Source: Clostridiales bacterium (lineage in GTDB: Bacteria > Bacillota > Clostridia > Oscillospirales > Oscillospiraceae). From it: DNA of 33,359 nt. The number at the start of each line of letters is the position of its first letter. Position 1 is the first letter of the stretch. This document shows, piece by piece, positions 9,347 to 28,844 of this stretch. The stretch spans positions 1 through 33,359 of the forward strand of contig JAJPXY010000042.1 in NCBI GenBank assembly GCA_021205205.1. The letters run 5' to 3'. The notes under the pieces are model-generated. The model was given only the letters and a program-made list of their open reading frames with translations. It was not told where the DNA came from and made no database searches. The position numbers and the translations under genes were made by a program.

Positions 9347-9825
9347 GGTGTTTCCTCGCTTGTCTGTTCCAGCCAGAGCAAATATTCCTTGGCGGCGATG
9401 CCACCGGCGGCGCTGAACCCGGTCAGGGCGCCGTTCTTCCCCACCACCCGGTGGCAAGGGACCAGCAACAGGATCTTGTTCCACTTGCAGGCAGACCCCA
9501 CTGCCTGGCTGGCTCTGGGGTTATTCAGGGCGGTGGCGATTTCGCCGTAGGTGCGGGTCTCCCCGTAGGGGATCTGCCGCAGCTGTTCCCAGACCTGCCG
9601 CTGGAAGGGCGTCCCCTCCAGACACACCGGCAGGTCAAAGACCCGCCGCGTCCCGCAAAAGTATTCCTCCAGTTCCTCTTCCAGCCGGTCCAGCAGGGCC
9701 TCCTCCTCCGGGGTTGGCGGATGCCTTGATGGCGGCATTGCGCCGGAAATCAGCCAAACCACCGCTCCCTTGTCTGCCGCAGCGGTCAGGAGGCCGATGG
9801 GGGTCATGATCGCCCGGCAGGTCAA
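9343..9825 (-). CDS. ogt: Methylated-DNA-[protein]-cysteine S-methyltransferase (Ogt/MGMT)
   Basis: A 160-residue suicide alkyltransferase that moves O6-alkyl groups from guanine to its own cysteine. The active-site motif is VPCHRVVG; upstream lie the helix-turn-helix region IPYGETRTYGEIA and ASQAVGSACKWN (usually ...NPI). The best start is TTG at 9825: it has GGAGGT just upstream, overlaps the lexA stop as TTGA, and supplies the expected N-terminal strand running into MTPIGLLTAA. The ATG at 9807 has no ribosome site. Placement directly after lexA makes DNA-damage induction likely. The motif NKILLLVPCHRV lacks the usual Pro after Asn, a small divergence. Confidence 0.9.
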   Translation of the reverse strand: MTCRAIMTPIGLLTAAADKGAVVWLISGAMPPSRHPPTPEEEALLDRLEEELEEYFCGTRRVFDLPVCLEGTPFQRQVWEQLRQIPYGETRTYGEIATALNNPRASQAVGSACKWNKILLLVPCHRVVGKNGALTGFSAAGGIAAKEYLLWLEQTSEETP

Positions 9826-10433
9826 CTGTACCTCCGAATGACGGCCACCACCTTGCCCAGTAGCTGGCAGTCGCTGCCGTCGATGGGGTCGTAGTTGTCG
9901 TTCTCCGGCAGCAGCCAAATCTTCCCGTTCCGCTTGCTCAGCCGTTTGCAGGTGGCCTCCTCCCCCAGCAGGGCCACCACGATCTCGCCGTTTTGGGCCA
10001 CGGGCTGGCGGTGGACCACCACGTAGTCGTCGGGGAGAATGCCCGCGTCGATCATGGAGTCCCCCCGGATGCGCAGAGCGAAATGCTCCCCGGACTGGCC
10101 CCCGGTGTCAAAGACCAGATAGTCCTCCACGCACTCCTGGGCCAAAATCGGCGCGCCCGCCGCCACGCTGCCCAGCACGGGGACTTGATTTGGACGGGGG
10201 GACGATTCCTCCGGGATGGCGCTGTGTACGGCGGTGATGGCGCGGGTCTTGCCGCTGTCCCGGTTGATGGCCCCGGCCTCCTCCAGCGCTTTCAGGTGGA
10301 AGTGGACGGTGGAGGGGCTTTTCAGCCCAACAGCGGCGGCAATTTCCCGCACAGAGGGGGGATAGCCGTTCTCGGCGGTGAATTTCAGCAGGTAGTCGTA
10401 AATCACCTGCTGCTTTGGGGTCAGTTCCTTCAT
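9822..10433 (-). CDS. lexA: LexA, SOS-response repressor and autoprotease
   Basis: A 203-residue LexA. The N-terminal winged helix contains YPPSVREIAAAVGLKSPSTV (about 24-43). The self-cleavage site is SVAAGAPI (Ala92-Gly93), the catalytic Ser126 lies in GDSMIDAG, and the Lys163 partner lies in ATCKRL. It represses DNA-damage genes until RecA filaments trigger self-cleavage. The ATG at 10433 has GGAGGGATAAAT upstream; the track's longer start is unsupported. Its promoter carries a LexA box overlapping the -35, so it is probably autoregulated. It heads a four-gene unit with ogt, the ArsC-like gene and DUF1294, all overlapping by 4 bp. Confidence 0.96.
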   Translation of the reverse strand: MKELTPKQQVIYDYLLKFTAENGYPPSVREIAAAVGLKSPSTVHFHLKALEEAGAINRDSGKTRAITAVHSAIPEESSPRPNQVPVLGSVAAGAPILAQECVEDYLVFDTGGQSGEHFALRIRGDSMIDAGILPDDYVVVHRQPVAQNGEIVVALLGEEATCKRLSKRNGKIWLLPENDNYDPIDGSDCQLLGKVVAVIRRYS

Positions 10434-10597: not shown

Positions 10598-10637
10598 AGT
10601 GTACCACACCCTCAACAAAAATGCAAACATTTGTTCC
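10598..10637 (-). promoter_or_regulatory. lexA promoter with overlapping LexA (Cheo-type) box
   Basis: Minus strand: -35 TTGCAT (10621-10626), 17-nt spacer, extended -10 TGGTACACT with hexamer TACACT at 10598-10603. The word GAACAAATGTTT (10625-10636) matches the Firmicutes LexA box GAAC-N4-GTTC at seven of eight positions and covers the -35, the usual layout for autorepression. Confidence 0.75.
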
Positions 10638-27431: not shown

Positions 27432-27437
27432 AACCAC

Positions 27438-27545
27438 AGTGAGACTGACCGTTGGCCGGGCTTTGCAAGAGCGTTGCCAGAAAGCGAGCGTGTTAGTCTT
27501 ATTCCAAAGCGCCTGAGCCGCCGCTCAGACGCTTTGTTACTTTTC
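27438..27545 (+). ncRNA. Candidate structured small RNA of about 105 nt
   Basis: A promoter precedes and a terminator closes this interval. In between, AGACTGAC (27442-27449) can pair over all 8 positions (one G-U) with GTTAGTCT (27492-27499). An inner hairpin GCTTTGCAA/TTGC...AAAGC fits within it. No protein frame, and no known riboswitch or housekeeping RNA consensus, was recognised. The gene downstream is on the other strand, so this would be a trans-acting RNA or an antisense partner. Confidence 0.4.
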
Positions 27546-27578: not shown

Positions 27579-27836
27579 TCAGAATAGCAGCAGCACCGCC
27601 GCCAGCGCGCTGACGGTCAGGGCCAGCGAGGCCGCCAGGTCCAGCGCGTCCCCCGCCCGCTGGAGCAGGGGGCGGCGCTCCTGCCGGGGCTGCTCCTGGC
27701 TCAGCTCGGGCGTTTCCTCCGGCACGTCGTAGGCGGGCAGGTCGCCCCGCTCCATTTTGCGCTTGTAATCCTGAAAATCAATGACGTTTCCCTGGGTTTT
27801 GACAAACCGGCGGGTGGTAAGATATGTGGTCTCCAT
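27579..27836 (-). CDS. Small C-terminally anchored membrane protein under double LexA-box control
   Basis: An 85-residue protein not recognised as a known family. The N-terminal 60 residues are polar and basic (TTRRFVKTQGNVIDFQDYKRKME), followed by a Pro/Glu/Gln-rich stretch. A single transmembrane helix lies at about 64-85 and ends the protein (SALAAVLLLF). The start ATG 27836 has AAAGGAGG eight bases upstream; the track start 18 codons earlier is unsupported. Its promoter contains two perfect GAAC-N4-GTTC LexA boxes. Small SOS-induced membrane proteins in other bacteria (YneA, SidA, TisB) block division or depolarise membranes, so a DNA-damage checkpoint role is a reasonable inference. It has no LysM domain and the anchor is at the opposite end from YneA's. 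Confidence 0.85.
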   Translation of the reverse strand: METTYLTTRRFVKTQGNVIDFQDYKRKMERGDLPAYDVPEETPELSQEQPRQERRPLLQRAGDALDLAASLALTVSALAAVLLLF

Positions 27837-27890
27837 CACAGACGCCTCCTTTGGGCAGCGCCGCCGGGGAATTGCTGCGGCGGCCTTCAT

Positions 27891-27934
27891 CGAACTTCTG
27901 TTCTAATTATGAACGGATGTTCGATAAATGTCAA
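27891..27934 (-). promoter_or_regulatory. SOS promoter with two perfect LexA boxes
   Basis: Minus strand: -35 TTGACA (27929-27934), 17-nt spacer, -10 CATAAT (27906-27911). Box 1, GAAC-TTCT-GTTC at 27892-27903, covers the transcription start. Box 2, GAAC-GGAT-GTTC at 27911-27922, lies in the -35/-10 spacer. Both match the Firmicutes LexA consensus in all eight fixed positions. Confidence 0.88.
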
Positions 27935-28002
27935 GAGAAATTTTGCGGGGAGCGTCCCATAAAACGGACTATGCGGGGAGAAAAAATTTTTTCGTCAATG
28001 CG

Positions 28003-28079: not shown

Positions 28080-28844
28080 ATGAGAACTTACCTTTACCCC
28101 TGTCTCGGCCTGCTCCTGGGGGGAGCGGGCTGCGCCCTGCGCCGGTGGCAGCTGGCCACCTGCTTCGATGAAAACGGCCTACCGGTGCCCGGCGGGGCCG
28201 CGGACCTGCTCATCGCCCTGACGGTGTGCGGGTTGGTGTGCTTCCTGCTGCTGGCGCTGACCCGGCGGGCGGGAAACCGGGACTGGGCTGGGGCCTTGGG
28301 GCCGGGGCCGCGCCCGGAGCTGGCGCTGGGCGGCGCGCTCTATCTGGCTGCTGGGGCCGCCTATGTCCTCTGGACCAGACAGGCCGACCCGGCCAGTTCT
28401 GTCTTTCAGGCCATCAACGTGGTGCTGCCGGTGCTGCTGGGGGCGACGCTGTTCTGCGCTGGCGTCGGCGTCTTTCTGATGGCCCGGCGGGGGGCGGTGG
28501 AGCCGCTGGCGGCCATGGTCCCGGGGTTTTGCAGCTGCTTCTGGCTGATTCAAATCTACCACTCCAACGCCAATAACCCGGTGGTGCAGGCGTTTGTCTG
28601 GCAGATGCTGGCGGCGGTGGCTTCGGTCGCCGCCTGGTACTACCTGGCGGGGTTCTCCCTGGGCCGCGGCAAGGGACGGTCCGCCCTGTTCTGGTCGCTG
28701 GCGGCGGTGATGCTGTCCTTCACCGCGCTGGCGGACGAAGGCGCCCTCTTTACCCGGCTGCTGCTGCTGGCGCAGGTGCTGTGTCTGACGCCACTGCTGA
28801 CCCGGCTGGTCGCCGGGATGGAACGGGCTGGGCGGAAAACGTAA
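28080..28844 (+). CDS. Polytopic membrane protein of unknown function
   Basis: A 254-residue protein with about seven hydrophobic helices (near 5-20, 42-61, 78-95, 107-132, 140-155, 168-191 and 203-240), rich in Leu, Ala and Gly. No transporter, protease or kinase motif was recognised. Basic residues between helices (TRRAGNR, MARRGA) mark likely cytoplasmic loops. The ATG at 28080 has GAGG eight bases upstream. It has its own promoter, diverges from the SOS gene, and ends at a strong terminator after a family C repeat. Confidence 0.82.
   Translation: MRTYLYPCLGLLLGGAGCALRRWQLATCFDENGLPVPGGAADLLIALTVCGLVCFLLLALTRRAGNRDWAGALGPGPRPELALGGALYLAAGAAYVLWTRQADPASSVFQAINVVLPVLLGATLFCAGVGVFLMARRGAVEPLAAMVPGFCSCFWLIQIYHSNANNPVVQAFVWQMLAAVASVAAWYYLAGFSLGRGKGRSALFWSLAAVMLSFTALADEGALFTRLLLLAQVLCLTPLLTRLVAGMERAGRKT

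Follow-up and report, generated by a model that had tools for sequence, protein, structure and literature searches.

The window, i.e., the whole stretch of 33,359 nt that was analysed, carries on its minus strand a previously unannotated gene for an 85-aa tail-anchored membrane protein (METTYLTTRRFVKTQGNVIDFQDYKRKM...LDLAASLALTVSALAAVLLLF), located at 27579..27836 and supported by its open reading frame, the predicted helix, dN/dS and a structure model. The frame runs from an ATG at 27836 to a stop codon at 27579 and is preceded, 8 nt before the ATG, by the ribosome-binding site AAAGGAGG (27845..27852, minus strand), which is invariant in six aligned promoters. A longer ORF of 103 aa that begins at 27890 probably does not represent the gene; in several close relatives this frame is closed by stop codons shortly 5′ of the 85-aa start, which makes the latter the likelier one. 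The membrane helix comprises residues 57–84 of 85. Thus, the initial annotation was right in describing a good ribosome site and a protein with one C-terminal transmembrane helix. Comparison of the window gene with four relatives yielded dN/dS values of 0.16–0.29 (0.14–0.29 within the clade); because of the latter values we consider the ORF to represent a real protein, which by this measure is under purifying selection. An AlphaFold model computed from two input sequences (mean pLDDT 64, low confidence outside the helix) suggests a short hairpin, a short helix and a disordered linker, followed by the long terminal helix.

No neighbourhood common to all genera was found, and the tail-anchored gene stands alone. 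On the plus strand, a divergent gene (28080–28844) encodes a multi-pass membrane protein of 254 aa for which no Pfam match exceeded the cut-off; it adjoins the tail-anchored gene also in a close relative (L031). On the other side, a hairpin terminator (27506..27535) is shared with a convergent RNA gene, a candidate for an unannotated RNA of ~110 nt (27437–27545, plus strand) with the promoter TTGCAT-17-TTAAAG and a terminator. This RNA is conserved across its genus, and 7 of 30 predicted pairs show two-sided changes when two clades are compared; Rfam returned no match for it or for the region.

Promoter P1 of the tail-anchored gene consists of the −35 element TTGACA (27929..27934) and the −10 element CATAAT (27906..27911), both on the minus strand and 17 bp apart, as the initial annotation had it. 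Its two exact GAAC-N4-GTTC sites, the Gram-positive type of LexA box, were likewise located where they had been described, over the spacer and the start point: the distal box GAACATCCGTTC (27911..27922) lies within the −35/−10 spacer and the proximal box GAACAGAAGTTC (27892..27903) over the expected transcription start. There are no other exact sites in the window, for which 0.42 would be expected, and at least two occurred anywhere in 5 of 100 shuffles. The 2.16-Mb genome contains 33 exact sites, the single ones mostly inside genes, and the promoter studied here holds the sole pair, 19 bp apart. Such a promoter pair is far less frequent than two sites anywhere: as a background value, 2 of 879 segments of 400 nt from other loci contained a pair. 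A possible leader hairpin 5′ of the ribosome site folds no better than shuffled sequences (z 0.73), though the sequence is conserved in the clade.

The predicted repressor is encoded in the same window, at about 9825..10433 on the minus strand; both the LexA_DNA_bind and the Peptidase_S24 domains were detected, in agreement with the lexA gene previously noted 17 kb away. It has a box of its own, GAACAAATGTTT (10625..10636, minus strand), with one mismatch to the palindrome. A site of this kind, GAAC-N4-GTTT, was present upstream of lexA in all 30 genomes inspected (14 genera), 69–175 nt before the coding domain of the 30 lexA genes. This constant association of lexA with a GAAC-N4-GTT box supports the identification of the box as a LexA site. 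Two hallmarks of a LexA regulon were found here, a Gram-positive LexA box in the promoter that is kept in orthologues, and a lexA gene of the same bacteria with the same type of box, indicative of autoregulation.

A protein search in 201 genomes of the same bacterial family identified 14 further homologues with 30–50% identity, plus two close public loci. Before 12 of these 14, a box pair was present in which one or both boxes are exact, and allowing up to one mismatch per box raised the count to 13, against the background of 2/879 segments. The check suggested earlier, whether paired boxes recur upstream of homologues, thus came out positive, and the refutation proposed with it, homologues lacking the boxes, fails. 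Across genera, protein identity is only about 20–45%, yet the LexA boxes are conserved. A profile search in 394 genomes of the order gave convincing matches confined to the same family; the weak matches L073–L076 and L092–L095 belong to other, larger proteins and were rejected.

In a promoter-first search, the paired-box pattern was applied without protein information to 401 genomes of the family and matched 58 distinct sites in 58 genomes from 20 genera, as a rule one per genome; the reversed pattern, used as control, gave fewer matches, several of them clustered within single genomes. Downstream of the 58 sites we found 44 genes with the same tail-anchored architecture (two of them shortened or frameshifted), four cases of a 41-aa membrane peptide in one genus (one cut by a contig end), three radical-SAM DNA-repair genes (TIGR03916) and seven other or chance cases. 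The P1 layout, with the distal box in the spacer, the −10 directly after it and the proximal box downstream, is present in 42 of 51 members; as the promoter-first set was chosen by promoter, its box statistics are circular, and the protein-first homologues constitute the independent set. Together, these results characterise a fast-evolving family that occurs, as far as the genomes show, in many genera of one bacterial family. At the sequence level, the conservation of the boxes across genera and the same box type before lexA lend good support to the earlier proposal of an SOS effector. LexA regulation of the family is thus strongly supported by comparative genomics, and LexA would be expected to bind the boxes in the window and to render the gene inducible by DNA damage.

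All 51 members share the same architecture. The single helix ends 0–7 residues from the C-terminus, its core contains no or one charged residue, and basic residues precede it in nearly all members. By the positive-inside rule, these basic residues predict that the protein is a tail anchor with the N-terminus inside. Two N-terminal sequence types exist, METxYFTTRxFVR... and M[ED]TxYxxLxARR..., both followed by a motif of the type V-[DN]-[FL]-x-x-[YC]-R and then by a variable linker. Searches of Pfam, NCBIfam and PDB sequences with the window protein and 38 family members produced no convincing match, including none to any division inhibitor; isolated weak matches to SepX/GlpR (E=0.0023), DUF6264 and DotU, each in one or two members, were judged to be chance. 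None of the 38 members matched LysM, and no relative was found in the phages and plasmids searched. With a C-terminal helix in 51/51 members, the topology is opposite to that of YneA, as had been stated together with the lack of LysM. The protein has no N-terminal helix, no LysM and no match to a curated family model, and is not a member of the YneA family; it belongs among the small membrane effectors of the SOS response, outside that family.

Upstream of P1, a second operator was recognised that the initial annotation had not noted, the dyad GTCCGTTTTATGGGAC (27954..27969, minus strand), a predicted site for a WYL activator similar to DriD or PafBC. It represents the element GTCC-N8-GGAC (consensus GTCCGNTTTATGGGAC), usually followed after 11 bp by TAnnnT. 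In most genera this element sits between the LexA boxes and the gene, at a fixed distance from a −10, and is shared by damage genes and the regulator gene. No −10 lies at the usual distance from the dyad in the window clade, where the dyad is centred at about −62 from the expected P1 start, a common position for an upstream activator; in the relatives its first base lies a fixed 47 bp from that of the distal box. The full element occurs in 23 of the 51 members, and 36 have at least 7 of the 8 dyad bases together with part of the −10, counts that include three members of one genus (e.g. L017) in which the full element is that of the adjacent upstream 40-aa gene. A motif search in 13 genomes returned 32 matches vs 5 for the reversed control. 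The matches precede the tail-anchored gene, recA, a WYL-domain regulator and, in 11 of the 13 genomes, a soluble protein of ~40 aa.

This conserved soluble protein (~40–50 aa; RWVRGHVEVYDxxGRFRFSADSExEALEELEEDAA) was recorded at the loci L156, L157, L160–L164, L167, L168, L174 and L180. It had no NCBIfam match, and the one member scanned had no Pfam match. In genome G135 (L017/L161) its gene lies directly upstream of the tail-anchored gene.

A gene for a WYL regulator was present in all 16 genomes inspected, including the source genome (G000:C21). The regulator has a WCX domain, as is typical of class A among Gram-positives. The element precedes its gene in full in 5 of the 16 genomes and nearly so in two more; it is absent from the WYL paralogues. 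No element is visible before the WYL gene of the window clade, which, together with the dyad lacking a −10, makes WYL control less certain there. Based on this genomic association, the WYL protein may bind GTCC-N8-GGAC and respond to single-stranded DNA.

The full GTCC-N8-GGAC element was also found upstream of recA in 10 of 29 genomes (L175, L206–L234), with a few more close to it, and a LexA-like box in none of the 29. From these two observations, recA seems no longer to belong to the LexA regulon in this family of bacteria. In the source genome, recA lies at a contig end and its promoter is unreadable there. In C. difficile, recA has a LexA box (PMC4234289).

Taken together, the anatomy of the protein and its two regulatory inputs are best read as those of a division checkpoint protein: we consider it somewhat more probable than the converse (roughly 55%) that it is a DNA-damage checkpoint effector, most likely a septation inhibitor, with inputs from LexA and a WYL regulator. 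In healthy cells, LexA dimers on the two boxes, in the −35/−10 spacer and at the start site, would block P1, which would fire once LexA is cleaved after damage. A WYL-domain activator sensing single-stranded DNA could act on GTCC-N8-GGAC to activate expression independently of LexA, through a promoter P2 of its own in most genera and, in the window clade, at P1 from a site further upstream. The product would insert by its C-terminal helix and leave about 60 residues, including the V-[DN]-[FL]-x-x-[YC]-R type motif, in the cytoplasm. Its target is most likely a membrane protein of the divisome, for example FtsW, FtsI or FtsL, contacted helix to helix; the cytoplasmic part would serve to inhibit or to localise, and septation would be delayed until repair is complete.

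Comparable systems have been described in other bacteria. In Caulobacter crescentus, SidA (controlled by LexA) and DidA (controlled by the WYL activator DriD) are damage-induced small membrane proteins that block the FtsW/FtsI/FtsN complex (PMC4211646). DriD, a 327-aa protein whose site overlaps the −35 at a constant short distance from the −10, drives didA, the septation inhibitor with sidA as its SOS counterpart (PMC12340889, PMC4211646). The family described here is known from its sequences, by which it resembles SidA and DidA as a small, damage-regulated, single-pass membrane protein; it differs in that one gene appears to carry both inputs, in belonging to another phylum and in showing no sequence similarity. 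The presumed regulator resembles DriD as a WYL damage regulator with a site at a fixed short distance from the −10, and the geometry of the second element matches that of DriD promoters. This likeness strengthens the division-inhibitor reading, which we still put forward conditionally. The mycobacterial WYL damage regulator PafBC acts through the promoter motif RecA-NDp (PMC12340889, PMC6789036); that motif is not palindromic, whereas GTCC-N8-GGAC, to which WYL binding is predicted, is.

Among Gram-positives, YneA of Bacillus and the YneA-like ChiZ are SOS-controlled, small, single-pass division inhibitors, and Bacillus LexA uses GAAC-N4-GTTC (PMC6051672, PMC13396833, PMC4234289). The window family shares size, single membrane passage and this operator; its helix is C-terminal and LysM is lacking, whereas in YneA the helix is N-terminal and a LysM domain lies outside the cell. 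The YneA helix binds TM7 of FtsW, and the same is predicted for other SOS inhibitors (PMC13396833). The helix alone binds FtsW and does not inhibit (PMC13396833), so a helix would be insufficient for inhibition. SosA of Staphylococcus aureus, described as an SOS-induced division inhibitor (PMC6851548), likewise has a membrane helix and no LysM; its extended post-helix region is critical for toxicity (PMC13396833), whereas almost nothing follows the helix in the window family.

Among the other explanations, boxes arising by chance before a spurious ORF might be suspected from the 33 single exact sites of the genome. This has a vanishingly small probability and is refuted by the cross-genus conservation of pair and protein, with spacing and promoter conserved as well and within-clade dN/dS as low as given above. 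The second dyad could be the operator of another, non-WYL regulator, which would leave LexA as the sole damage input. This would account for WYL genes that lack the motif, as in the window clade and about half of the genomes tested; the presence of the motif before recA and before the WYL gene itself, its DriD-type geometry and its lack on WYL paralogues speak against it, and we regard it as doubtful.

The division-inhibitor reading itself has to be weighed against other roles of SOS-induced small membrane proteins, as exemplified by TisB. TisB-type SOS toxins are LexA-controlled small membrane proteins, and the helix of TisB is amphipathic. A TisB-like or type I-toxin-like peptide, inserting into the membrane after damage to lower the proton motive force and induce dormancy, would also be SOS-controlled and small with one helix, and the toxin-like size of the 41-aa peptide behind the promoter of one genus and the structured RNA that converges on the gene in members of the window clade would fit. 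We nevertheless consider it quite improbable: the helix has an apolar core and reaches the C-terminus, unlike the TisB helix, and a cytoplasmic part of ~60 residues under purifying selection would be superfluous for a pore. The convergent RNA overlaps the terminator only, not the coding region, and was not seen at that place in other genera; the antisense RNA over the toxin message that marks a type I toxin–antitoxin system is thus lacking here. It is somewhat unlikely that the protein, induced by damage, serves as a membrane anchor or adaptor for a target outside the divisome, e.g. a protease adaptor, a chromosome–membrane tether or a sporulation checkpoint. A conserved cytoplasmic motif, flexible linker and tail anchor form a common adaptor layout, and homology to known division inhibitors is absent; in the bacteria studied so far, however, a small membrane protein that stands alone under LexA or DriD control is often a septation inhibitor.

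In its widest form, in which two independent damage sensors (LexA and a DriD-like WYL protein) are wired family-wide to a new tail-anchored division inhibitor while recA is off LexA and WYL-run in many species, the proposal is tentative and falls just short of an even chance. If true, this would be the first description from Firmicutes of a WYL damage regulon, of which the literature searched contained no example, and SOS division inhibitors would gain a new topology. Such inhibitors are non-homologous between phyla and missed by annotation. The present family is a family-wide candidate for gut-type anaerobes, for which the literature searched described none. That literature contained no paper on Oscillospiraceae together with LexA and the SOS response, and neither it nor the family models described the tail-anchored protein. 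The word division is absent from the paper on the LexA regulon of C. difficile (PMC4234289), and a gut SOS meta-regulon study worked with COGs (PMC3998124), an approach that small unassigned ORFs would escape. The promoter evidence makes it testable how these bacteria halt division after DNA damage, and whether Gram-positive anaerobes possess a WYL-run, LexA-independent damage response with recA as a target.

Additionally, two variations were observed downstream of the paired boxes. In genus g77 (L126, L127, L129, L130), both promoters drive the 41-aa membrane peptide (e.g. MKTIKAIWRSRKPLSPQATQVLYGVSILATFLVAGRFSALV; in L130 the contig ends before the gene), which is perhaps a reduced or replaced effector. 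At L131, L132 and L133, the paired LexA boxes precede the TIGR03916 radical-SAM DNA repair/modification gene, likely a further SOS target.
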